64,000 bases of DNA, taken from contig NZ_AP021872.1 in assembly GCF_014218255.1 (NCBI RefSeq), positions 868,001 to 932,000 on the forward strand, read 5' to 3'. How positions within the stretch are numbered: the stretch's first letter is position 1; every line of letters begins with the position of its first letter. The position numbers were made by a program, and so were the translations under genes. The notes beneath the pieces were generated by a model. It worked only from the letters and a program-made list of their open reading frames with translations. It did no database searches and had not been told where the DNA came from. The stretch is from Mycoavidus sp. B2-EB. Its GTDB lineage: Bacteria; Pseudomonadota; Gammaproteobacteria; Burkholderiales; Burkholderiaceae. Positions 13,877 through 50,273 of the stretch are shown here, piece by piece.

Positions 13877-14590
13877 ATGCAATCTACATCAGGCGTAACC
13901 CCGATAGCAGCTGCCCAAAGCCAAACCAGTACCTTAACGTACTTGACTCTTGCTGACCAGGGCAAGCAAGCCATCAACATTGCACAGAATTACTTAAATA
14001 GCAGAGATTATGAAGGCGCACTGCGTTCATTGGAGATGGCGAAAAACAATTTTAAGGATGCGTTGGCTCAGAATAGAGTATTTGCTTTTGGTGAACAGCA
14101 GGATATTCAAGCTCATCTAGCTCGAACCTATCTAGTCAGTGGAGATATTTTATGTAATCTGAGTAGATTTGAAGAGGCGTGTGTTAGTTACGAAGATGCT
14201 TTGAAATATGGCGCGTTGGAGGCGCAGCAGAAATTAGCATCCTTGCAAAACCCGAGCAGAGAGCGAGAGGAAGTTGTAATCCAAATTGCAAATGGCTTGG
14301 GAGGACAAATGATAGATGGTTCGGGGAATACTAGCTATCTGCATTTCAACCCGACAGACAAAGATCTGCAGTTATACGCGGAAGTTCAAAAACAGCAAAC
14401 CTCTTTAGAGCAAGTGTTGGCGGTGCTGCCTCAGGTACGTGCAGGGAAAGGAGGAAGAACGGTTGTCCAATTTGCATCTGGTGTGGCGAATATCCCAACA
14501 TCTGGCCAAAATAATAAAATTACGACGATATGGGGCGTAAATAATACCTCTGAAACAATTCCTGGACCCAATCCTATGAATTTAGGCTAG
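13877..14590 (+). CDS. TPR-like protein with C-terminal pair of 25-residue repeats (paralogue of 14660)
   Basis: I do not recognise a named family for this 237-residue protein. Residues about 25-125 are helical and TPR-like (AINIAQNYLNSRDYEGALRS, FEEACVSYEDALKYGA). The C-terminal part carries two similar 25-residue segments, about 133-157 and 195-219. Both have Gln at repeat position 4, Gly at 8 and 16 and Asn at 19, in a setting of alternating hydrophobic and small polar residues. The same pair ends the next protein. A strong AAGGAG ribosome site precedes the ATG. No signal peptide or membrane segment is visible. The repeats resemble HET-s/RHIM-like amyloid-signalling motifs, which is inference. 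Its neighbours are the paralogue and a convergent NACHT gene. Confidence 0.6.
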   Translation: MQSTSGVTPIAAAQSQTSTLTYLTLADQGKQAINIAQNYLNSRDYEGALRSLEMAKNNFKDALAQNRVFAFGEQQDIQAHLARTYLVSGDILCNLSRFEEACVSYEDALKYGALEAQQKLASLQNPSREREEVVIQIANGLGGQMIDGSGNTSYLHFNPTDKDLQLYAEVQKQQTSLEQVLAVLPQVRAGKGGRTVVQFASGVANIPTSGQNNKITTIWGVNNTSETIPGPNPMNLG

Positions 14591-14607
14591 CGCGAGCTTG
14601 AGGGGTG

Positions 14608-14629
14608 CTGCCTAATAGAAATTAGGCAG
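14608..14629. repeat. 9-bp hairpin between the two paralogous genes
   Basis: CTGCCTAAT and ATTAGGCAG form a stem with a 4-base loop, followed by TATTAAG. It could be a weak terminator or an mRNA structure separating the two genes. Confidence 0.45.
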
Positions 14630-14659
14630 TATTAAGTATTTGAATATCGGAGAGATAAG

Positions 14660-17212
14660 ATGATAGGTTTGAGGAAAGTGGACGCTGCAATTGCTTTGCA
14701 AAAAGGTGAAAATTATCTAAAAGCTGCTCGTGAGCATCGGGATAAGCAAGAGTTTGATTTGGCGCTGAATCAGTTCAATCGAGCAAAAAGTGAACTGAAA
14801 AAGGCGGCTCCAACTAATTCGGCGGTTGAAACAGCGATTGCCACGGTCTACCTGGAAAGAGGGGATCTTTATGAAGCACGCGGTCAGCTCTCTTTGAGAG
14901 AGGATTTGGCCTGCGCTCACGACCTATTCAGACGGGCTCATGCGAGTTATATAAAAGCGACTGCCGAGCCTTATAATGCCCGTCAAAGTGAGGCGAAAGA
15001 AAAACTAGCTAAATTAGCTCTGCCGGAGACACCAAGCCCTTGGCAAGCAGCCTCTAGAGCTCAAGAAGCGATCAAGCAAAAGTTTTCATCTCCGTCTCAG
15101 GTCGCCTTAAGTTTTTTTAAGTCAAGTCAAAACCAGCCCCAGCCATCCCCACTTGCTCAGACCTATCCTCTTGTTACTGAGCTCGCTCAGCTGAGCGATA
15201 CTCGACACTTAGCCTGGTGTTTACAGAAGAACTATCTTTCTGAGGCGCAAGAAAAACAGTTTAAACAGCTCGCACGCGATATAGTAGAAAAATTTTCTGA
15301 TACTAATGCAAAAGGTTATTTTGAGCTGGTACGAGAAGTTGTACCACTCGCTACCATTGCTGATCGAGAGCTATACCAGCAGTTACTCAGCCAAACGGTA
15401 AATGCGCTGTCTGAAAATCAAGCGATTTTTCTGAACATACCCGTTGCACAAGGGCTGGCGGTGATGATTCGAGACTGCCCAAAAGACCTATTCAATCAAG
15501 TACCTTCTGGTGATTTGGTGAATGCGCTTAAATTGTTACACAAGCATTTGGATAAAGTTCATAAAACAAACAATTTGCTCCAGTGCCAAACCTTGTTGTA
15601 TACGGCCTCACAACTGCTTGATGCGATGACGTGTTTAGGCGTGAGTGGAATTGATCGGGAAGAGGTTCAAGCACCGCTGTATGCCACGTTAGATGGATTA
15701 ATCGGCCACTCCGATCCCGAGCTTGCTTGGCAAGCGCGCTATGCGCGTCAGGCATTAGCTCATATTCCGAACAATGAAGTGGTATGGAAATGCATATTGC
15801 GCCACACCTTTAGTGTAGGAAAGGGGGTTCTAAATCTTGCGTCTGCGATTAAGAATATAGACATAGACAAATTGGAAGCCTCACTGAACCGGTTTGAAGA
15901 TGCCTTCGTTTGTGCCCTGCAGACACTCAATCAACTGGGTGAGGTCGCAATGGCTACTGCTGAGGCCTTGCTCGCGCAATATGAAGCAGCAAGTGAGGGA
16001 TTGCAGCAGCTCAACCGTCCGCATGGATGGTATGCGGCGCTGCGCTTTGCAGATTTGTTACTGGAGGAAAATCAATTGGCGGCGCTGGAGAAACTTGCGC
16101 GTATTCCTCGCTATAGTCACAATGAGAAATTCTTACAAGGTTTATGCCAACGGTTAGAGCGAGTAGCACTCACGCATGAGGGCGAAGTGCAAAAAGGGGC
16201 GAAAGAATTTCTAAAGAGCCTTGCGCAAGATAAGCAGTGGGGCGGGCACGAGCGTGTTATGCAAATGGCGCAGAAGGCTTCGCAGCGCTTAGATCAGCCT
16301 CAGCCAATAGGTGACCAAGATTACATACCCGCGTGGTCTCCGCTCTGGCGTGTGCCACTTGAGACACAATTGTTAGATAAAGTACGAGGCGAGATTCGTC
16401 TGGAACAGGTGCCGGATAAATTAGATGTGATCAGCCTGCTGTTAAAAGGCATGCCTGATCTAGAGCAGAAAATGCAGGCCATATTAGAACAGCAGATGCA
16501 GCAAACGCAAAGCATGTTGGAGCAGAAAATGCAGCAAATGCTGGGCGTTTTAGAACAGCAACAAGCGCAACAACCGTTACCTGACCTTGCTCCATTAACC
16601 ACTTTACCGACGGACCTGAAAGAGCAAAAAGATCTGTATCTAAAGAGCCTGGAAGAAATTGGGGAGATAAAGGGCGGACTTACTCTCTATAGAGGAATGT
16701 ACGGGCAAGCGGCATCGGGTGGAAACGGGTATTTTGGTTTAGATGATATCGCGACGGTGTTTTTTGCGTCCAATGAGAGGGTTCAGCAAATTTCTGAGCG
16801 GCTTGCTGAGATGAGGTACAGACTCTTGCCGCAGCTATTTGAGCTTGCAATGAGACGGAGTGCGCAGGGACTGCCGGAAGAAAATCAAGACACGCTTATA
16901 CAAATATCAAACGGTGTGAGCAGTGAGGTGGTGAGTGGCTCAGGTAACACGAGCACTGTGCATATCAACCCCGCAGACTTAGATCCGCAGTTTTGGGCTG
17001 CAAACTCAAACCAAGTACAATTTTCTCAGGGTTTAGATGCAGCGCTTGCTTCGCGTCGTCAGTCAGGAGGGAAAGTTGTGTTCCAGTACGCGGGGGGGCT
17101 AGGCAGTAGAGCGGTATCCGGTAATAACAACGTAAGCACGACTTATTTGGGTTCGAGTCCTACTTCTACACCGGCCTCTGATCCAACAACCCGAGAAATA
17201 GAAAAGAAATAA
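14660..17212 (+). CDS. Large helical/TPR protein with coiled coil and C-terminal repeat pair
   Basis: This is an 850-residue protein of unknown function. The N-terminus (about 10-125) is TPR-like and similar in layout to the gene at 13877 (KGENYLKAAREHRDKQEFDLALNQF region). Residues 170-600 are mostly helical without a catalytic motif I can name. Residues about 608-650 are a Gln/Met/Glu-rich coiled coil (repeats of LEQKMQ). The C-terminus has two 25-residue repeats at about 746-770 and 804-829, matching those of the 237-residue paralogue. No signal peptide is visible. GGAGAGATAAG before the ATG is the ribosome site. It converges on the NACHT gene across an inverted repeat. The helical middle could be the sensor or adaptor part of a STAND-type system, but this is inference from context. 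Confidence 0.6.
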   Translation: MIGLRKVDAAIALQKGENYLKAAREHRDKQEFDLALNQFNRAKSELKKAAPTNSAVETAIATVYLERGDLYEARGQLSLREDLACAHDLFRRAHASYIKATAEPYNARQSEAKEKLAKLALPETPSPWQAASRAQEAIKQKFSSPSQVALSFFKSSQNQPQPSPLAQTYPLVTELAQLSDTRHLAWCLQKNYLSEAQEKQFKQLARDIVEKFSDTNAKGYFELVREVVPLATIADRELYQQLLSQTVNALSENQAIFLNIPVAQGLAVMIRDCPKDLFNQVPSGDLVNALKLLHKHLDKVHKTNNLLQCQTLLYTASQLLDAMTCLGVSGIDREEVQAPLYATLDGLIGHSDPELAWQARYARQALAHIPNNEVVWKCILRHTFSVGKGVLNLASAIKNIDIDKLEASLNRFEDAFVCALQTLNQLGEVAMATAEALLAQYEAASEGLQQLNRPHGWYAALRFADLLLEENQLAALEKLARIPRYSHNEKFLQGLCQRLERVALTHEGEVQKGAKEFLKSLAQDKQWGGHERVMQMAQKASQRLDQPQPIGDQDYIPAWSPLWRVPLETQLLDKVRGEIRLEQVPDKLDVISLLLKGMPDLEQKMQAILEQQMQQTQSMLEQKMQQMLGVLEQQQAQQPLPDLAPLTTLPTDLKEQKDLYLKSLEEIGEIKGGLTLYRGMYGQAASGGNGYFGLDDIATVFFASNERVQQISERLAEMRYRLLPQLFELAMRRSAQGLPEENQDTLIQISNGVSSEVVSGSGNTSTVHINPADLDPQFWAANSNQVQFSQGLDAALASRRQSGGKVVFQYAGGLGSRAVSGNNNVSTTYLGSSPTSTPASDPTTREIEKK

Positions 17213-17320: not shown

Positions 17321-20300
17321 TTAAACTAAATGCGCATGCCCTTGAATATCTGTACATAAGCGGGCAAGTTCACCACTTGGGATTGAGGTGGGAGAGGCCA
17401 GCTCTCTTATAAGAGAAGGCTCTACAGGGCTTGAGCGATAAGCGCGGGAACGTGTCTGGATCTCTTTGAAGGAAGGGTGGCGTAATGGTACGGTGCTCTT
17501 CAACCAGGTGTTCATAAAACCACCCATGTGTTGAGTGGTTAGAGAAATGGACTTCTTTAGCCCAGCCGTTGTATAGAAATGCAGTCTATTATTGTGCATA
17601 TAAAGCGGTGCAATATGGGCGCAACTCCATGGGAATAAAACGCTCATATAGAGTGACTGTATTTGCTCAGGGGTTAGGCTTGGCAGCAAAGTGTAAAGCC
17701 GATCAATGTGTAAATTTAAAATCTTGGTAATCGCAGATAAGACAAATTTATCATTTTTCTTCTTCTCTAGCGTAGCGACCAAAGTTTGAAGCACGGCATC
17801 AGGTAATATTTCTTGTTGGTTGAGTGCTTTAGCCGTTGCGAATATGACAGAGTCTGCTTCATTCGGCTCTGCTAGCACCGTCGCTAAGGTTTGCATCACG
17901 GTTTCTGGCAGCGCCTTGGGTTGGCCTAGTGCTGTGGCTGCGGTAGATCTGGCGAGCTTTCCTCTTGCTTTATTTTTGAGGATTGCTGCCCACGCTTGAA
18001 TCACGGTTTCAGTCTGTATTTTTTGTTGGTTTAATGCTTTAGCTGCGGCGGATATGACGGAGTCTTCTTCATTCGGATCTGCGATCAACGTCACCAAGGT
18101 TTGTATCACGTTGCCTGCTAGCGTCTCGGGTTGTCCGAGTGCTTGGGCAATGCTGGATCTGAGGGAGGCATCCTCGGCTTTATTTTTGAGGATCGAATCC
18201 CATGCTTGAATGACAGCCTCAGTCAGTTCTTTTTGTTTGCTTAAAGCTTGTATCGCCTCAATTCTGAAAGTGCACTGTTGATCCAGTGAGGCTTGGGTTA
18301 GGACTAATTTGGCGTGCTCGGGCAGCGTTTGGTGTTGGCCTAAGCTCTTAATGGCCTTAGCTTGTATATCTTGATCTGCACTCGATAGCGCGGCGATCCA
18401 GGCTTGCATCACTTCGTTAGATAGGTTTTCTTGTCGGCTTAATACCATGGCGGCTGCAGAGCGGGTTTTTTGATGCTCATCTGTGAGCGCTATAATCAAG
18501 GCGCGACAGGTATTGGCAGGTAATCTTGGCTGTCGATGCAAGGCTTGAATGGCGGCGAGCCGGATCCGCCATGTTTCGTCCTGATTCTGTACTATCTCAG
18601 TTAAATCTTGAATAATCTCTTCAGAGAGTACGGTTTCTTGGCCTAATGTATCGGCAGCGGCAATTCTGCTTCCCAAGCTTTCTGTTCCAAGCTCACTTTT
18701 TAACACGGAAAGTAAAGTTTGCGTGAGGCAGGGCGGTAGCGTTTCCTGATTGTTGAGCGCTTTGGCAACCAACACTCTAATGTTTTCTTTCTCATTCTTA
18801 TCTTGTAACACGGTAGACAAGGCTTGAATGGCTGTTTCAGGTATTATTTTGCGTCGATTTAATACTTGTGCCGCGGTAGACCTGATATATTCTTTTTCAT
18901 CTTTATCCAGCAGCAGCGAGATCAAGATTTGAAGGGCTGTTTGAGCAAACGGTTCCCGCCAACTAAAAACCTCGGCGGCCGAAGCCCTTAACTCTTCGTT
19001 TTCATCTTTATTGCGCAAGACTGTGAGCAAGGCATCTATGGTCGCTTCGGACAGCGTTTGCTGCGAGCTGAATGCGTTCGCAGCTATTCCTCTGATCTCC
19101 TTGTCTTCACTTTTATTGAGTAACACTGCAACCAAAGCTTGAGTGATGATGTCAGAGAGTGGCTGCTGTTGGCCTAAAGCCTCAGTCGCCGTAGACCTGA
19201 TATGCTTTTCTTTATTCTGTAAGGCGGCTATTAAGATTTTAAGCGCCGTGTCAGGCAGTGTTTCCAGTCGGCCCAATATTTTGCCTGCGGCATATCTAAT
19301 TTCCCAGTTTGCATCTAGTAATGCTGAAATTAAGGTCAGAATGACGGCTTCGGCCAATGGTTTTTGCCGGCCTAAGGCTCCAATGGCTGCAATTCTGACA
19401 TCCTCATCTTCATCCTCATTTTGTAACACCGTGCTTAAGGCCTGAACGACGGCATCAGACAATGTGTGCTGTTGACCCAAGATTTCGGCCGCTGCACTTT
19501 TCGCCTCTTTATTTTCTTCAGGCTTAAGCAGCACTGAAATAATCGCTTGAGTCGCATGGTGAGATAGCGTTGAGCGTGCATTGAGGGTTCGAATAAGGGT
19601 GGCCTTATTGCTGTTAGGCTGATGTAGATAAGTGAGCAGCAGATGCTCTGGGAATCCCGGTTGGCGCCCTAATGCGCTGACCTTATCTAGGTTAAGACTG
19701 ATCTCAAAGTGTAGCCACTGCAGCCACTCTGTTTCTAGTCTATCGATAGTTTTTTCTTCTAATTGGGCGCGTGCTACCTGCACGCATCCCATCATCACGT
19801 GTTGATGGCGCGCGCTAAGCAAGTCCTGAGGCGTCTCTTCTAATAGCGTAAAAAAGTGTTCTAAGGCAGCGCCTTTAAGCAACCCGGCCAACATTTGCCA
19901 CATTGGCTCATAACGAGGATCGTATTTATGTTCGGCGATAAAGACATGCAATTGTGTTGGGCTGAGGATTAAACCGGAAGCGACAGGTATCTTGTTTGTA
20001 TGGGCAGACGTTTGCTCGGCTTGTGCATCAATTTTCAGCTGCTGAGCCAGGAACTTAGCTGCAAAAAATTCCTGCAAGGAGGGGTGCAAGAAATGATAAC
20101 GGCGCTCGACTTCCGGGAGCCTAATATCAGTCGTGTGTAAGAAGGAGGTATGTTTCAAATCAGTTCTGAGCCAGAACGGCGATTTTATTCCTAGCCGCGC
20201 TTGATCCTGGGTCAGCTTATCCAGATCCACTTCAAGGGTTCCGGCCTCTAATCCTTTAAAAGCTAAATAGCTTAAAGCGTGGAGTTCCGGAGCGATGAGC

Positions 20301-41703: not shown

Positions 41704-44700
41704 ATGATGTTAAGACCTATTCATGGTATATCCACTCAATACATTCGGACTCATTCGATTACACCAGATAGGCCAGAGCAAATACCCGCCCCTTCTAATC
41801 CAGAAGCGGATGCACCGACGGCGCACCGTGCTCACTCTATCCCCCGCAGCCTGAATCGCGTTATAAAGATGGCTGGAGAGCCGGCCCAATTGATTTTTTC
41901 TAATGCCAATGGGATGGAGTGCTGCGGCTATCAATTTCTCCATACCAACCGCCTTGTGCTCACAACCGGCGAACCGGCTTTAAATCGTGACGGTGAGTTT
42001 CAGGCCTTTCGTCTAAAAACAGGTCAAATAACGATTCAAAGCAAAACAATCCTCAAAGGATATGAGCAGATTGATGTAATCGCGTATTCGATTAAAATAG
42101 AGGGCGAGTTATCCGCCAATCAAATTAACTTGAATACAGCGGTGAATGGCTCAAATCTGAGCTTGCCCGTTACGCTGCAACAGGACATAGCCGACACGAC
42201 CATTCATTCGGAGTTCCCCCGTCTGTTGCAATTCACAGGCACCGCCAAGGTAAAAGCAGAAGAACATTTGAGCATTCAAGCAGATACGCTCGATAATGCC
42301 AGTTCTCAGATTCAATCAAACGGAAATATTACCCTCAAAGCCAACCGTTTGATCGGCGCAGGAACGCTCGGCGCCACACTGGATCTTACGGCAAAGCTGG
42401 AAGAGAATTACACGCATCGCACTCAACTCAACGCCGGTCGGCATCTATCGATTTCAACGGCCCAAAGTTTCACGAATCAAGGCACTCTAAAAACGCGAGG
42501 TGAAATCACGCTTAAAGCTAAAACGTTTGAAAATCAATCCACCTCTTTGATAGACGGTGTTCACCTTAAATTCAAGGTAGAAAATGTGCTTAAGAATTAT
42601 GGAGTGATTCAGGGCAGCACAGTGGTGATTGATACGCAGCATTTGCTCAATGATGGCACTGAAGATACGGATGAGCAGCAGGCTGGGGCTATCCTCGGGC
42701 GAGATCAACTGATGCTTGGAGCAAGGACCCTGCATAACCAGGAGCATGGGTTACTGCATAGTGATGGCGACCTGACAATAGGAGATGCTTTTTATAAACA
42801 AAACACCGTCACGGATTTAGCCAAAGAGTTTATGAATGCGGAGTTTTCCACGGTTGAATCAAGAGGAAAGCTTCTGATTAAAGCTATATTTTTAAATAAT
42901 CAGAAAGGACAGATTACCGCGGGTTCTGATCTGGTTCTTGAAAGTGACACGCTCACCAATGATCAGGGGCATATAGAAGCGAAGGGAGATCAAAGCGTAT
43001 TGAAGGTGCGGGCTGATATCATTAATAATCACTCAGGTTATCTGATTCATAATGGTGCTGGACCCATCCAGATAGTTGCCGACATGATGGAGAATCATAA
43101 TGTTGAAGCAATAAAAGGGGCGGGGTTAATTAGCAGTAAGGGTCCGATAACGATCAGCGTTGCCAAGCTGTCTAATCATCAAGGTGGGACCATCCTTTCG
43201 GATCAAACACTCAAAATAGGCACTTTTTACACAGCTTCTTTGGTATGCTATTTGAAAAATCTAGCCGGCACACTATCGGCGCACCAAAAAATTGAGATTG
43301 ATACATATCAACTAGATAACAGCAAAGGTCTGATTGCCGTAGGGAAAGATGAAGCTTCCGAACCGGAGATTTCAAGTGATCCAGACCGTTCCACACAGCC
43401 GACGTATCCAGGCAGTGTCCTTGAAATTCGTGCGCATACAGTCATTAACACGGAGGGGGGGCAAATCGTTCAAAGTGGACAGGGTCAGATCCAGCTTTTT
43501 TTAGATGCGAGCGGCGGTGGCTACATAGCACAAGGGGGCTTAATGAATGCCTGGGGTCGCATCACGATAGAAGCGCCGAATATTGTCCATACGAATAAGA
43601 GCCAGATGACGGGAAAAGACCTCAATCTGGTCATCGGAGAAAGAATTCTTAACCAAGCCAATGCAACGTTATTTGCCCGCGATAGATTGTCCTTAAAAGC
43701 CTTAGCGCTCGATAATATGCAACAAGGGGTTTTGCAAAGTGAGGGGCGCATCTTCATTTTAGCGATGGCTTTTTGTAACGAAGGCACGATACACAGCCAA
43801 GGGGAGATCCGGATCCTTTCTAATAAGATGCGTAACCGTCGAGAAAGTGGCACATTGACCCAGCACTTATTGCGTTTGGCGATTCACCCGGGCCTGATTA
43901 CGGGCGATACGATTTTAATCAGTGCGCGTGGGCCTGACTCTCTGTTGAGAAATACGGAGAGCATGATTTTCGCGCAAAACAACCTTCAAATCGGGGTTCA
44001 TGAGATTCAAAATCGTGCCGGTGGTACGCTTTATAGTGGCGGTGGTTTAGCCATTGGCCGTAAGCTGAATGCGGAGTCTATCGTGCAGGGTCGCAGTGAA
44101 CGCATTCTCAATCATGGCTCCACGATGGATGCGGTGGGAGATCTAACGATTCATGCAAAAGCGCTAGTCAATCAAAATGCAAGATTCGAAATCGAAGAAA
44201 GGCTGATTGAGGAGCGGGGCATACACGAATGTCACGATGACCAGACAAACCAACGCTTTGATGGCTCCCAAATCGCCTGGCACGGCGACGTAGGGGGCCT
44301 CTACCGTGTGCACAGCTCCGGTCATGAAATATTTCGTTTTATCAACTATGTCTTTACGCGCCGAGTGACCACAACCAGGGTGACGCACAGCGAACCTGGC
44401 AAGATTCATGCAGGTGGCGCGATCTCTCTGTCAGACCAGGTGATGAACGATAAAAGCATGATTATCGCTGGAGGGGCGCTCAGCGACCTTGAAGGCAGGC
44501 CTGCCCAAATTGAAAACCGGGATGCCATCGGTCAACGCGTCACGACTGATCAGGGAACCTTGCAATACTCAGATAGAAAGTGGCGAGGCGGGTTCAAGCG
44601 CTATTTTCAACGGGAGTGGGGTGGGCACGCGCCCTACCATCCGGCACCAATGGTCGAGCATCACACGCTGACGGTCGCCGTCTCTCAACCGCATACGGCA

Positions 44701-47700
44701 GTAGAGCATTCTGCGCCCTCTACCGCCTTAGTGCCGAGTTCTTCGGCTTTAAGCCGTAATACTTTATTAAATAGCGGTTTATTGCGCCTCAACACCGATC
44801 CCAATCAACGCTATCTGATCCAGATCGATCCCCGTTTTACTCGCCACAGCGACAGCGTTTCGAGCGATGTATTGCTGCGCTTACTGAATCTGGATCCTCA
44901 GCACATTCCCAAACGCCTGGGCGATGGATTCTATGAACAGCAACTGATTCGAGACCAAATTATTGGTCTAACGGGCCATTACTACCTCTCTAACCATCGA
45001 AACCCGTTTGCTGAGATTCGGGACTTGATGCACGCCGGGGCAGACTGGGCCAAACGGTTCAATTTGATGCTCGGCATTGAACCGACACCTGAGCAAATCA
45101 ATGCGTTAACCACCAGCCCCGTCTGGCTAGTGAATCAACGTATTCAATTACCCGATGGCTCAGAACAGACGGTCCTGGTGCCTAAAGTGTATCTGGCCCC
45201 AAGCGATGCGCCGGCCATCCCACGAAGCAATGCACTGATTTCAGCCGATACGATCGAGTTAGAGAGCGACCGCCCCTTTAAAAACACCGGAACCGTGCTC
45301 AGTCGCAGCACAACACGTATTCGCGCAAGCCAGATCGATAACGCGCGCGGCACGCTGGCCAGCCGGGGCACCCTCTCTATCCAAGCCCGCGACGACATCG
45401 ATAGCCGCGCCGGTAAGCTGATTGCCGTTAAAAAACTCACCGTACAGGCCGGCCAAAATCTACAATTGCAAAGCCAGACACAGACCACTCATGCCGCCAG
45501 CGGCAGCCGAACAAACTTAGCGGGCCTCACCCAGATCCAGGCCGGAGAGCTGGAAGCGACGGCGGGATCCGATCTCCACCTAGCCGCCACCCAAATTGAA
45601 GTGGAACACACGGCAAGGTTGGACGCTCAGCAAGATCTGATCTTAGGGACCGCCACCACCGGCTTGCAACAGAAGATCGTCTGGGATGAACGGAATGCCC
45701 TCAGCCTAAGCCAGCACACTGAAGTTGGCACCCAGATTCAGGCCGGCGCGCTTGAGCTGAAGGCTGGGCGCGATGTAACTGCAACCGGCGCGTATGTCAA
45801 AGCGGCAGAGAAACTCGCGGTGAAAGCCCGCCGAGATATTCATTTGGAAGCCGCGTATGAAGAGACGGATTTTGAGGAGTCTCATTATCATGAATCGAGT
45901 CACTTCTTCGGTTCCTCAAGCGAATTAACGCGCAACGTGCTGTATAGAAAACAAGCGTTAAGCAGCACCTTATCTGGAGGCACAGTACAGATAGAAGCTG
46001 GACATGACCTGAATATCCTCGGTTCAAACGTGGCGGGGATGCATGATGTGGATCTTTATGCGGGAAATGCCCTCCAGCAAAAGGCAGTCGAACAGGCTGA
46101 GCGCACTCAGCGCTATTCCGTTCAAGAACGCTCCGGCTTATTAGAGAGCGGGAAATTCGGCGTGACGATCGGCACGCGAACCCAAAAAGACGCTCAAGAA
46201 AAGGAGCACACCCCTCAGATTGGCTCAGTCATAGGCAGCGTATCAGGTCCTGTCAGAGCGATTGCCGGCCGAGACTACGAGCAAAGCGGCAGTCAATGGG
46301 TGGTGCCCACCGGCGATATAGAGATTCGAGCCGGTCAAGGCAAGATTGAAGCGGCCTATGAGCAAAGCCGAGTCTGGCAGCGCAGTGAATGGCATCAATC
46401 GGGTCTGACGGTATCGGTCAGTGCGCCGGTGATTGCCGCGGCGCAAACGAATCGTCAGATGCTGCAAACCAGTACCCAGGTCAGCGATGCGCGGATGCAC
46501 GCGTTAGCGGCCGGTGCAGGCGCACTGGCGGCGAAAAACGCCTACGATGCGATCAAAGCAGATCCCAAAGCAGCCGGTGGCGCCACCGTGAGCGTAATGC
46601 TGGGCGAAGAGCATTCTGAAAGCGAGCAGATACAGCTCAGCCGGACAGCGCTCAACAGCACCCTGGCAGCCGGAGGGGATATCTCGATCCAGATCGGTGG
46701 CTTAGGAGAAAAATCCACGTTGGATCTGATGGGCGCTCGCATCGAAGCCAAACAGAATATAGCGCTTAACGTAGAAGGCCGTCTGAAGATGGAAGCCGCG
46801 CCGAATAGCCTGATCGAGCAAAGTCAGCAGCACAGCCAGAGTTCTGCAGTGGGGGCCGTGGCAACGCTGGGCAGTCAGAGCTCAGTGGGCGCATCGGTTG
46901 CACTCAGTGTAGGGCATGGCCGTACAAAAGGAGCGCAAATTAACTATACGCCGACTCTGATTCAGGCCGGTGGCACGCTAGAGCTCAAAGCAAAAAGTGA
47001 TGTGCGCCTCAAAGGCGCTCAGATGGTGGGCAAGCAGGTTAAAGCCCAGATTGAGGGTGACCTTGACATAGACAGTGTGCAAAACACGGCGAGGTACCAA
47101 AGCCATGCTCAAAGTATCTGTGGCAGTGCGACCGCCGGCTCTGTCTCGGCAGCGAGTCTGAATGTCTCACAACGCAGGATGGACAGTGATTATCTGAGTG
47201 TGGCAGAACAAGCGGGGATTCAGGCTGGAGAGGATGGCTTTCAGATCAGCGTTAAAGGAGATACGAAGCTGGTTGGTGGCGTGATGGCAGGTTCTGAGCA
47301 GGCGGTGCAGAAAGGCAAAAATAAACTGATAACAGCAACTCTGCACAACACGGATCTGACGAATCAGGCGAGCTATTCTGCAAGCAGTATCAGCTTAGGC
47401 GGTGGGTATAGTCAAAGTGGCAAAGGAGTGGGCTCAGACCCATCAGGAAAAGCCATAACGCCGGCGCATAGCGGCAATCAACTGGCAAGCCGGGGTGGAG
47501 TGAGTGCTGCGCTACCGATTGTGATGAGTGCTTCAGGCCAGGCAAGATCCACTACCCGCAGTGCGATCAGCGGTGCGGAGATGGTGATTACGGATGAGGC
47601 GCGGCAAATCGAGCTGACGGGACATAGCGCGGCCGAGACGATTGCAGACCTAAACCGTCATCCGGCACAGAGTCATCAAGCGTTAGCGCCGATTTTTAAT

Positions 47701-49344
47701 CAAGCGGAGATTGAAGCCGGCTTTGATATTGTCCATGCATTAGGTCGGGAAGCCAATACTTTTATCGTCAATCGAGCCCGGGAAGTAGATCAAAAGCTCG
47801 AGCAAGCTAAGCGTATCGAGATGGCGGGTAATGAGCCAATGCCTGTGGAGCAGCAAGAGGCATTACAAAACATGGCAGTTGAATTGCGCGCCCAGGCGCA
47901 AGCGCTGAATCAGCAATGGGGACCTGGTGGCTTAAGCCGGCGGATATTGACAGCGTTAACCGCAGCCGCCTCCGGTAATGTAACAGGGGCGACCGAACAG
48001 TTTGTGCAAAGCGGTGTTGTGAATTTGCTCCAACAGCACGGGGCAGGCTACGTTGGCGAGTTGGTGAAATCTGGCGCAGTAAACGAAGGCAGCGCAGCGC
48101 ATGCAGTGTTGCACGCACTGGTTGGGTTAGGTGGCGCAGCCGCCTCGAATCAAAGCCTCGGCGCGGGGGCATTAGGTGGCGCGGTATCGAGCATTTTAAC
48201 GCATGCCTTTAGTCCGACCCGTCCAGATGAAACGCGTACTGAACAGGAAGCCAAACACAATCTTGCGACCACACTGGTTGCGGGTGTAGCGGCACTGACT
48301 GGGGCCGATGCGACTGTGGCTACACACAGTGCCGCAGCGGCTATCGATAATAATTGGCTGGCTACAGAACAACTCGTGCTAGCCCAAAAAGAATTAGATG
48401 CCTGTGAAGACGATTTCGTCTGCAACGCAGGGACAATGATTAAATGGACCGGTGTTTCGGCGAAGCAAGATGCATTGACAATGTCGGGTCTGATCAGCGG
48501 TTTGGCTGAGGCGGGTTGGCATGATTTAAAAGGATTGGCCGAATTTTTTAAAGATCTTCCCAAGAGTCTAGCAGGATTGGCTTCTCTGGTTAACCAAGAA
48601 GTACGCGATCAAATAGGAGAAGAGATTGCTGCTGAGTTCAATGCCAAAATCAACCGGATGCAGGTTGCCTTAAGAGAAGGCGGCGACCAAAATGCATTAC
48701 AGCTTGGCCGGGATTTAGGCAATTTAATCTGGCAGATAGGCTCAATCGCAATGGGAACAGTAGGTGCGGCTCAGCTCACTGCATCGCTGGGTAAAGTTGG
48801 AGTTCGTTTAGGTAAGGAAGCGGCAAAAGAGTTTTTGCATGTTGACTGGGTGACGATGGGGGGGAATTTCGGTCATAACGGCAAGCCATTGCTAGACTTT
48901 AAGCAATTAGCCAACATGGAAAAAAGCATGGTGGGCGAGCACTTTGGTGGCAAATTTATTCAGAATTTACTGCCCGATGCACAACCCATTGCACGAGTGG
49001 GGGCGAGTGAAAAAGGCATTGATGCTTTATATAAGGTCAATAAGAATGGTATCGACTATGTCATAGTGGAATATAAATATGATAAATCTAGATTAAGCAA
49101 AAAAACCGCTGACGGGCCACAAATGAGCGATAGCTGGTTGATTGGGAAGAAAACAGGGCGTAACCGGATTTTGAGATTTGCAGGTCCAGAAGAAGGATTA
49201 AATATTACAGAAGCGTGGAAGATGGGGCGTGCTGAAAAATGGCTCGTCCATACGAGCCGTCATGGTAGAGTGTCCGTTAGTCTCTTAGATAAGAATGCCA
49301 AACGGATCCCTTATAATACCTCGAAACTGCTGGGGGAAAAATGA
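41704..49344 (+). CDS. CdiA-like filamentous haemagglutinin with C-terminal PoNe-type nuclease, N-terminus truncated
   Basis: The protein has 2546 residues. Residues about 50-145 match only the second half of a TPS secretion domain (AQLIFSNANGMECCGYQF, LVLTTGEPAL). The ESPR/signal peptide and the front of the domain are absent. Haemagglutinin beta-helix repeats fill about 180-1970, and a pretoxin region follows with IDNN (about 2214) in place of VENN. The last 165 residues carry GIDALYK (Asp 2440), VEYK (Glu 2456, Lys 2458) and QMSDSW, the D-ExK pattern of PoNe DNases in the PD-(D/E)XK superfamily. The next gene is a PoNi-type immunity gene with a 4-base overlap. No cdiB is in the window. Without a signal peptide, export by the CdiB route is doubtful; GGGGTGA precedes the ATG. 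Confidence 0.85.
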   Translation: MMLRPIHGISTQYIRTHSITPDRPEQIPAPSNPEADAPTAHRAHSIPRSLNRVIKMAGEPAQLIFSNANGMECCGYQFLHTNRLVLTTGEPALNRDGEFQAFRLKTGQITIQSKTILKGYEQIDVIAYSIKIEGELSANQINLNTAVNGSNLSLPVTLQQDIADTTIHSEFPRLLQFTGTAKVKAEEHLSIQADTLDNASSQIQSNGNITLKANRLIGAGTLGATLDLTAKLEENYTHRTQLNAGRHLSISTAQSFTNQGTLKTRGEITLKAKTFENQSTSLIDGVHLKFKVENVLKNYGVIQGSTVVIDTQHLLNDGTEDTDEQQAGAILGRDQLMLGARTLHNQEHGLLHSDGDLTIGDAFYKQNTVTDLAKEFMNAEFSTVESRGKLLIKAIFLNNQKGQITAGSDLVLESDTLTNDQGHIEAKGDQSVLKVRADIINNHSGYLIHNGAGPIQIVADMMENHNVEAIKGAGLISSKGPITISVAKLSNHQGGTILSDQTLKIGTFYTASLVCYLKNLAGTLSAHQKIEIDTYQLDNSKGLIAVGKDEASEPEISSDPDRSTQPTYPGSVLEIRAHTVINTEGGQIVQSGQGQIQLFLDASGGGYIAQGGLMNAWGRITIEAPNIVHTNKSQMTGKDLNLVIGERILNQANATLFARDRLSLKALALDNMQQGVLQSEGRIFILAMAFCNEGTIHSQGEIRILSNKMRNRRESGTLTQHLLRLAIHPGLITGDTILISARGPDSLLRNTESMIFAQNNLQIGVHEIQNRAGGTLYSGGGLAIGRKLNAESIVQGRSERILNHGSTMDAVGDLTIHAKALVNQNARFEIEERLIEERGIHECHDDQTNQRFDGSQIAWHGDVGGLYRVHSSGHEIFRFINYVFTRRVTTTRVTHSEPGKIHAGGAISLSDQVMNDKSMIIAGGALSDLEGRPAQIENRDAIGQRVTTDQGTLQYSDRKWRGGFKRYFQREWGGHAPYHPAPMVEHHTLTVAVSQPHTAVEHSAPSTALVPSSSALSRNTLLNSGLLRLNTDPNQRYLIQIDPRFTRHSDSVSSDVLLRLLNLDPQHIPKRLGDGFYEQQLIRDQIIGLTGHYYLSNHRNPFAEIRDLMHAGADWAKRFNLMLGIEPTPEQINALTTSPVWLVNQRIQLPDGSEQTVLVPKVYLAPSDAPAIPRSNALISADTIELESDRPFKNTGTVLSRSTTRIRASQIDNARGTLASRGTLSIQARDDIDSRAGKLIAVKKLTVQAGQNLQLQSQTQTTHAASGSRTNLAGLTQIQAGELEATAGSDLHLAATQIEVEHTARLDAQQDLILGTATTGLQQKIVWDERNALSLSQHTEVGTQIQAGALELKAGRDVTATGAYVKAAEKLAVKARRDIHLEAAYEETDFEESHYHESSHFFGSSSELTRNVLYRKQALSSTLSGGTVQIEAGHDLNILGSNVAGMHDVDLYAGNALQQKAVEQAERTQRYSVQERSGLLESGKFGVTIGTRTQKDAQEKEHTPQIGSVIGSVSGPVRAIAGRDYEQSGSQWVVPTGDIEIRAGQGKIEAAYEQSRVWQRSEWHQSGLTVSVSAPVIAAAQTNRQMLQTSTQVSDARMHALAAGAGALAAKNAYDAIKADPKAAGGATVSVMLGEEHSESEQIQLSRTALNSTLAAGGDISIQIGGLGEKSTLDLMGARIEAKQNIALNVEGRLKMEAAPNSLIEQSQQHSQSSAVGAVATLGSQSSVGASVALSVGHGRTKGAQINYTPTLIQAGGTLELKAKSDVRLKGAQMVGKQVKAQIEGDLDIDSVQNTARYQSHAQSICGSATAGSVSAASLNVSQRRMDSDYLSVAEQAGIQAGEDGFQISVKGDTKLVGGVMAGSEQAVQKGKNKLITATLHNTDLTNQASYSASSISLGGGYSQSGKGVGSDPSGKAITPAHSGNQLASRGGVSAALPIVMSASGQARSTTRSAISGAEMVITDEARQIELTGHSAAETIADLNRHPAQSHQALAPIFNQAEIEAGFDIVHALGREANTFIVNRAREVDQKLEQAKRIEMAGNEPMPVEQQEALQNMAVELRAQAQALNQQWGPGGLSRRILTALTAAASGNVTGATEQFVQSGVVNLLQQHGAGYVGELVKSGAVNEGSAAHAVLHALVGLGGAAASNQSLGAGALGGAVSSILTHAFSPTRPDETRTEQEAKHNLATTLVAGVAALTGADATVATHSAAAAIDNNWLATEQLVLAQKELDACEDDFVCNAGTMIKWTGVSAKQDALTMSGLISGLAEAGWHDLKGLAEFFKDLPKSLAGLASLVNQEVRDQIGEEIAAEFNAKINRMQVALREGGDQNALQLGRDLGNLIWQIGSIAMGTVGAAQLTASLGKVGVRLGKEAAKEFLHVDWVTMGGNFGHNGKPLLDFKQLANMEKSMVGEHFGGKFIQNLLPDAQPIARVGASEKGIDALYKVNKNGIDYVIVEYKYDKSRLSKKTADGPQMSDSWLIGKKTGRNRILRFAGPEEGLNITEAWKMGRAEKWLVHTSRHGRVSVSLLDKNAKRIPYNTSKLLGEK

Positions 49345-50273
49345 TTCGCGATAGCTTAAAAGATAAAGAGTGGTTTGATAAGTGGACTAAATTTGACGAA
49401 TATGCAATTAGTAAATATATTGAGGGGTGCAAAACTCCTTTTCATGATCCTACATATAAACCACAATATATCTTCGAGTTAGTGCAAGTATACTGGCGTC
49501 TAATGCAGCGCCGTTATTCTCGAGGCGATGCCATTCATGAATTAGCACAGTACTTCCCGCCTATGCTTGATGCTTGGGAAGAGTCTGAAAGGTTGGGGAA
49601 AGATATCTGGGACAAGCAAACACAATACACACGTAATGCGTGGGAGGTCAATTTTGATCAATACATTGATTGTTTCTGGCTGGTAGGTTTGGCTCTTGTC
49701 CTTGAAATCCCCAATGACCAATGGCAGCGATTACTTGCTTTGATTAATAATGATGGTGAAGATGAAATACTAGATCGCATTATTGCAAGCCGATCGCCTT
49801 CCCGTAAAATTGGGAACAAGCTATGCCATACAAAACCTTATCAGCGCTTGCTTGATGCTATCAATGCACCCAAGGAGCAACAAGCAAAGAAACTCAAAAT
49901 TTTTGTTGAAAAATGGTACGCTGAATTAATTCGGCAGCCTAAAAAAGAGCAACCCAAAGAAGTAGAGGCTCTATTTCCTAAGCGCCCCTATTGGTATAAA
50001 GATCATGAAATAGACGGAGCCTATTTTGGTTATTGGTGCATCGAAGCTGTAGCTGCCGTCAAAGCCTTTGGTTTAGATGACTCTTTATGCCTAGGCCATC
50101 CCAATTATCCAGGCGATTTACTACGGCCTAATGGGCCTTCTACTCACCCTGAACGAGTAGAACCAATAGAGAATGATCTAGCGGCTAAAGAAGAGCATGC
50201 TAAGGAAACACCCAAAAAGAATTTCTATCATTTTTGGTCGAGGATTTTTAATATAAAAAAGCCTAAGCTTTGA
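49341..50273 (+). CDS. PoNe-immunity (PoNi) family protein
   Basis: The protein has 310 residues and overlaps the toxin stop by 4 bases (ATGA), the standard toxin-immunity arrangement. The C-terminal half has GAYFGYWCIEAVAAVKAFG and HPNYPGDLLRP, the signature of the DUF1911/PoNi immunity domain. The N-terminal half is helical, like DUF1910. It should bind and block the PoNe nuclease at the end of the upstream protein, in the cytoplasm. The last 40 residues are a charged tail. It is intact, so immunity may be kept even if the toxin is not exported. Confidence 0.85.
   Translation: MIRDSLKDKEWFDKWTKFDEYAISKYIEGCKTPFHDPTYKPQYIFELVQVYWRLMQRRYSRGDAIHELAQYFPPMLDAWEESERLGKDIWDKQTQYTRNAWEVNFDQYIDCFWLVGLALVLEIPNDQWQRLLALINNDGEDEILDRIIASRSPSRKIGNKLCHTKPYQRLLDAINAPKEQQAKKLKIFVEKWYAELIRQPKKEQPKEVEALFPKRPYWYKDHEIDGAYFGYWCIEAVAAVKAFGLDDSLCLGHPNYPGDLLRPNGPSTHPERVEPIENDLAAKEEHAKETPKKNFYHFWSRIFNIKKPKL

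Follow-up and report, generated by a model that had tools for sequence, protein, structure and literature searches.

The 64,000-nucleotide stretch of Mycoavidus sp. B2-EB analysed here (contig NZ_AP021872.1, positions 868,001 to 932,000; hereafter the window) contains two adjacent genes, P1 and P2, whose proteins each close with two copies of a motif of ∼26 residues. We found single copies of this motif immediately in front of the NACHT domain of receptors elsewhere in the same genome and in a congeneric genome, and we consider it reasonably probable that P1 and P2 are motif-bearing downstream partners in a NOD-like receptor (NLR) signaling system working like HET-S/NWD2. The best reading of the sequences is a new amyloid-signaling-like family, set apart from BASS1-10 by description only. 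A sequence-only reading of the window had already proposed a paired signaling-type motif tied to NACHT proteins of the signal transduction ATPases with numerous domains (STAND) class, and the receptors carrying one copy each bear this out. The bacterium, whose genome is a single contig of 1,876,900 bp, most likely lives as an endosymbiont in a fungus of Mortierella type.

A paired motif at the C-termini of P1 and P2

P1 (13877..14590, + strand) is an open reading frame (ORF) of 237 aa with a TPR-like helical N-terminus followed by motif copies r1 (14270..14353, +; residues 132-159) and r2 (14456..14539, +; residues 194-221). P2 (14660..17212, +) encodes 850 aa, comprising TPR-like and ARM_5 regions, a putative coiled coil, a pre-NACHT segment and again two copies, r1 (16889..16972, +; residues 744-771) and r2 (17072..17155, +; residues 805-832). 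The four copies align without gaps and lie within 1-2 residues of where the sequence-only reading had placed them, and the separation of ∼35 residues that it described also holds, with start-to-start distances of 62 residues in P1 and 61 in P2 (59-64 for the pairs of 11 proteins). It had recognized the shared Gly and Asn correctly but understated Gln and Gly as present in three of four copies: Gln5, Gly9, Gly17, and Asn20 (34-column register) are common to all four.

Given that the C-termini of P1 and P2 align at 38% identity over 112 aa (E=1e-17), the likeness of their repeats is not due to chance. Single repeats used as queries also found each other (P2 r1 to P1 r1, E=2.6e-4; P1 r1 to P2 r1, E=1.3e-3). 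Across 57 copies the Gln is invariant and both Gly are nearly invariant, and the copies have less charge and a higher beta propensity than the remainder of P1 and P2 on rough propensity scales.

The motif in front of NACHT domains

The sequence-only reading had suggested a profile search for copies at the N-termini of receptors. An earlier profile (A1) combined the four repeats with one receptor copy and was hence circular for any claim on receptors, so we used instead a profile (A2) of 22 copies from P1/P2-like proteins only, with receptor copies excluded. In the whole-genome search of Mycoavidus sp. B2-EB, A2 retrieved receptor L019 (E=5.6e-4). In the congener G002, it gave 32 non-effector matches at E≤0.01 (best 2e-8), all 32 directly preceding a NACHT domain. 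A profile of the four window copies alone recovered few G002 receptors and missed L019, and therefore the wider partner set was needed. Effector and receptor copies compared profile to profile scored 49.3 (probability 98), while 200 column-shuffled controls reached at most 15.2.

A combined profile of 34 columns (A5) includes receptor copies, and its count in G002 is thus descriptive, the A2 search being the test. It located 64 copies in G002, of which 47 are single and end 244-331 nt ahead of the NACHT match, in 47 of the 84 NACHT proteins; 49 copies were initially counted as NACHT-upstream, but two of these are each the r2 of an adjoining P2 gene. The remaining 17 copies all lie in P1/P2-like genes, paired save in one truncated gene, and none occurs elsewhere. 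Positions ≤700 nt upstream of NACHT make up ∼1% of the stranded G002 genome.

Three of the eight clear NACHT proteins of the window genome have the motif (L019, L090, and L103), each as one copy N-terminal of NACHT; another (L104) has a degenerate copy, three have ARM_5, and only the NACHT-HEAT protein encoded in the window has neither motif nor ARM_5. The motif receptors are of STAND type, with NACHT and WD40 or HEAT sensor repeats, and their copy is placed ahead of NACHT, after an N-terminus that is TPR-like or short. NLRs and P1/P2-like proteins follow the rule of a single copy on the receptor and a pair on the partner. Genome-wide matches were confined to the P1/P2 copies, NACHT proteins, and two small fragments. 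These fragments are tiny ORFs of 96 and 72 aa (G000:C1:1680361-1680423, L020, and 1169364-1169462), probably remnants of decayed receptors.

The NACHT-HEAT gene (17321..21862, - strand; 1513 aa) converges on P2 and has a NACHT domain at residues 280-433 (E=3.4e-22) and HEAT_2 repeats (E=1.4e-40). P1 and P2 had been proposed as effectors or adaptors for this protein, a proposal that did not survive: neither a motif copy, even at permissive thresholds, nor ARM_5 was found in it, and it was ruled out as the P1/P2 partner on account of the missing motif. Judged by sequence, it is a neighbor rather than a demonstrated partner, and the candidate partners are other NACHT proteins elsewhere. Likewise, the earlier statement that no motif precedes NACHT is right for this gene and wrong for the genome, given L019, L090, and L103.

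P2 as a truncated receptor

The ARM_5 domain of P2 (PF23948; 15194..16321, +) is unambiguous (E=1.6e-87 / 7.7e-89; 294.5 bits against a Pfam gathering score of 27). It is followed by a Gln/Met-rich segment (16451..16579, +; residues ∼598-640), a coiled coil by sequence reading, and by a pre-P-loop-like segment (16595..16783, +) homologous to the stretch preceding the NACHT P-loop of L017, an ARM_5-NACHT-WD40 receptor of this genome. P2 and L017 share 33% identity over 718 positions, the alignment ending at P2 residue 708; P2 residues 651-708 align to residues 586-643 of L017, whose P-loop lies at ∼648. Homology thus stops where the P-loop would start, and the repeats replace NACHT. The N-terminus of P2 is related to the TPR-like N-terminus of P1, which gave a below-threshold TPR_2 match (E=3e-4) and shares homology with the corresponding region of ARM_5-NACHT receptors (hhalign probability 98.9). 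From these alignments, P2 appears to be an ARM_5 ("NLR_Helical") receptor cut just ahead of the P-loop with a motif pair added, and P1 and P2 both look like receptor parts to which the pair was joined.

NLR_Helical receptors are described from Mortierellomycetes, Pezizomycotina, and Mycoavidus (PMC9815663), and the Mycoavidus passages there do not mention the motif; we equate the ARM_5 of P2 with NLR_Helical because the two agree in taxa and in position. P2 has ARM_5 in common with these receptors, full ARM_5-NACHT-WD40 versions of which are present in the same genome, but it has neither NACHT nor sensor and carries the motif pair instead.

One could argue that the motif plays no part in signaling and is an inert or structural linker handed down from a common NLR ancestor. 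P2 descends from an NLR, so that shared sequence could reflect common descent, and its motifs change fast. However, this genome encodes three other proteins in which ARM_5 is fused directly to NACHT, all without the motif (0/3), and only one of ∼18 ARM_5 receptors of G002 combines the two (461969; the count excludes three ARM_5 domains belonging to neighboring P2 genes). Given that the source receptors are devoid of the motif, the pair was added to P2 rather than inherited. Together with the conservation of Gln and both Gly and the retention of duplicates in 11 proteins, this makes an inert linker very unlikely.

The same derivation raises the question of whether P1 and P2 are regulators, that is, truncated receptor derivatives with motifs that buffer the receptors or block them dominantly. 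P2 is the N-terminal half of an ARM_5 receptor without NACHT, P1 offers little beyond the TPR-like part and the motifs, Pfam, PADLOC, and NCBIfam scans recognized neither an enzymatic nor a membrane domain on the two proteins, and P1/P2 loci are few compared with 47 receptors. Against such a role, ARM_5 holds the N-terminal (effector) position in other NACHT receptors, and 46 motif receptors without an ARM_5 of their own would need a partner in trans. Since ARM_5 is N-terminal in cis on those other receptors, P2 would rather supply it in trans, and we regard regulation as improbable.

P1 and P2 are both on the + strand, 69 bp apart, and likely form a single transcript. Two loci of G002 have the order P1-P2-NLR on one strand with motifs in all three genes. 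A motif-bearing NLR adjacent to its putative partners was present at these two operons and not in the window, where the adjacent NACHT gene lacks the motif. A further G002 locus (L057; 14613-19001, G002:158612 onward) encodes a P2-like protein with two motifs followed by pentapeptide and WD40 repeats and no NACHT P-loop, the motif pair occupying the site expected for NACHT.

A possible signaling mechanism and its alternatives

The motif receptors bear one beta-prone copy (r0) of ∼26 residues immediately before NACHT. If P1 and P2 act as their partners, ligand-driven oligomerization would cluster r0 copies, which could then nucleate an ordered beta assembly. This assembly would recruit and order the C-terminal r1 and r2 pairs of P1 and P2 and so bring their TPR and ARM_5 domains together at high density, with P1 as adaptor or co-polymer and P2 as trans-acting effector. 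The motifs may interact with each other and the output may be a defense or cell-death response, while for the amyloid nature of the assembly we see the case as evenly balanced. The observations in support are the shared motif, the one-versus-two rule, the fixed pre-NACHT position, the G002 operons, and the derivation of P2; the co-absence of motif and P1/P2 in the congener G001 was also counted in support.

The closest parallels are HET-S/NWD2 and the HRAM motifs of filamentous fungi, in which, as here, the NLR has one N-terminal copy and its partner two C-terminal ones, Gly is conserved, and the motifs form subfamilies; the genes there are often adjacent, as they are at the two G002 operons. 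They differ in that their copies are ∼21 residues long (here ∼26), that the motif described here is unrelated by profile, that a HeLo domain is absent here, and that here the receptor copy lies between the TPR-like or short N-terminus and NACHT, with no cognate matching detected. BASS 1-10 likewise place a short motif at the N-terminus of bacterial NLRs and at the C-terminus of partners. BASS motifs span 20-40 residues, BASS4 often being repeated on the partner side (PMC8086366), and are described mainly in multicellular Actinobacteria and Cyanobacteria with Bell and less often CHAT or TIR domains (PMC7889193). Here, in contrast, the bacterium is a fungal-endosymbiont-type member of the Burkholderiaceae, the partners are TPR and ARM_5 proteins, and ∼47 receptors face few partners; the motif was compared with BASS 1-10 by description, not by profile. 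RHIM, PP, and BASS3 also are short Gln-Gly beta motifs, and subtype C of the NLR copies reads VQIG-NG. However, the RHIM resemblance noted in the sequence-only reading was not upheld, with the tetrad [IV]Q[IVLC]G in 5/59 copies, the longer core in 0/59, and the Pfam RHIM and Ses_B models silent.

Searched against Pfam-A at E≤10, 22 copies gave no match to HET-S, NACHT_sigma, Ses_B, or RHIM, and only ∼25% of HRAM motifs match the Pfam HET-S profile (PMC4518210). A PDB sequence search with the motif did not find the HET-s or HELLF structures; its best match, 6iai (DUF1076; E=0.0085 over 22 positions), was put down to chance or to a beta stretch rich in turns. With neither profiles nor the PDB sequence search supportive, homology of the motif to RHIM or HET-s was dropped. 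Pfam being silent and a NACHT link having been found, neither an ordinary globular domain nor a lack of STAND association, the two outcomes named beforehand as contrary, emerged. For P1 and P2 as a whole, no HeLo or HeLo-like N-terminal domain was found, P1 having a TPR-like and P2 a TPR-like and ARM_5 N-terminus, and Bell, CHAT, and TIR were unmatched in the same Pfam, PADLOC, and NCBIfam scans, which hold no dedicated Bell profile. PADLOC returned no match for P1, for P2, or for the NACHT-HEAT protein of the window, and on this basis a known defense system was rejected as their identity.

Several observations weigh against a HET-S/NWD2-like system. No known killing domain was found on P1 or P2, and in the window the NLR of the P1-P2-NLR order is absent, its place held by the convergent, motif-free NACHT-HEAT gene, with P1 and P2 ∼97 kb away from the best motif-bearing receptor. 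The ratio of nonsynonymous to synonymous substitutions (dN/dS) is 0.73 for the P2 motifs versus 0.24 for P2 overall (this genome versus G002; one pair, 52 codons). The linker between repeats is ∼35 residues, as opposed to 6-18 in HRAM, and r0 matches its cognate r1/r2 in fungal HRAM families (PMC4518210), while here NLR copies are more similar among themselves than to r1/r2 and, at four loci, the partner in the operon or neighborhood is not the best match for the NLR copy. The four-locus comparison thus gave no support for co-evolution of NLR motifs with those of cognate partners. Given that the receptor copies resemble each other more closely, that neighbors do not match best, and that the linkers exceed those of HRAM, the motif, if it signals, may be a common hub language and not one of insulated pairs. 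Finally, single-chain AlphaFold models, which had been called for in the sequence-only reading, have very low confidence in the repeats (mean predicted local distance difference test scores of 36.5 and 47.8), and we draw no structural claim from them; the helical N-terminus of P1 is the sole part that is mildly supported, and Foldseek returned nothing at E≤0.001.

An alternative is a small non-amyloid beta module, for instance one acting by strand exchange or heterodimer contact, that docks P1 and P2 onto resting or activated receptors with no templated polymerization. The homotypic distribution and the copy rule require interaction, not amyloid; the low-confidence models have ∼3 short strands per repeat; copies are not Asn/Gln-rich throughout; and the likeness of r1 to NLR type B runs beyond the 26-residue core into the next segment. 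However, the 26-residue copies of NLR type A and of r2 are isolated units with unrelated flanks, and one versus two copies with N- and C-terminal placement is the pattern of known amyloid signaling pairs (PMC4518210, PMC7889193). We consider such a docking module a credible but rather doubtful explanation and retain the HET-S/NWD2-like reading.

Distribution among genomes

The motif is present in two of three congeneric genomes, the window genome and G002. The ARM_5/NACHT-WD40 repertoire, read with the literature on Mycoavidus (PMC9815663, PMC11291939, PMC8759367), also points to this genus, to which G001 and G002 probably belong as well. In G001, which has ∼20 NACHT proteins and five ARM_5 receptors, both the motif and P1/P2 are absent. 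NACHT proteins number ∼84 in G002 (2.8 Mb) and eight in the window genome, a striking receptor expansion in one lineage. Among 398 Burkholderiaceae genomes, the motif occurs in the window genome and G002 only. Among 398 Pseudomonadota, it occurs in the window genome, the three other, weak matches (E 1.7e-4 to 9e-4) being at chance level for 398 genomes and hence rejected as relatives. A scan of a genome collection with P2 found no relatives outside the genus, in a collection that may leave out near relatives of the window genome, and a scan with the motif-to-NACHT region returned 80 loci, none with the motif. ARM_5-NACHT proteins without the motif were found in metagenome-assembled genomes (MAGs) of Myxococcales (L111), Legionellales (L109, ending in ankyrin repeats), and a gammaproteobacterium (L110), and ARM_5 is thus not restricted to fungi and Mycoavidus.

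In the literature, of which our coverage was partial, no paper on this motif was found by pairing Mycoavidus with amyloid or NACHT, and NLR-effector amyloid signaling is reported mainly from filamentous fungi and multicellular bacteria. The same layout is seen here in a bacterium that most likely lives within a fungus of Mortierella type; it extends to dozens of receptors, and its partners are apparently truncated receptors, not pore-forming domains. A bolder and rather improbable extension would be a many-to-few NLR network, in which a single promiscuous amyloid motif connects dozens of sensors to a few receptor-derived trans-effectors (P1/P2), the motif being shared with or seeding receptors of the fungal host and ARM_5 receptors being exchanged with it. 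The system offers a defined motif family that a sister species naturally lacks, and it allows one to ask directly whether the receptors of fungi and of endosymbionts use a common templating language.

Other features of the window

Two further features of the window were noted. An ORF at 22201-23946 (+), reading as DNA polymerase III gamma/tau, contains a 9-bp unit in 9.6 perfect tandem copies (23353-23438); the repeat encodes a Ser-Gln-Ala run and is a possible slippage site. A 2546-aa filamentous-haemagglutinin/two-partner secretion (TPS) protein (41704-49344, +) is followed by a PoNi immunity protein (49341-50273, +), and the two appear by sequence to be a contact-dependent-type polymorphic toxin/immunity pair.

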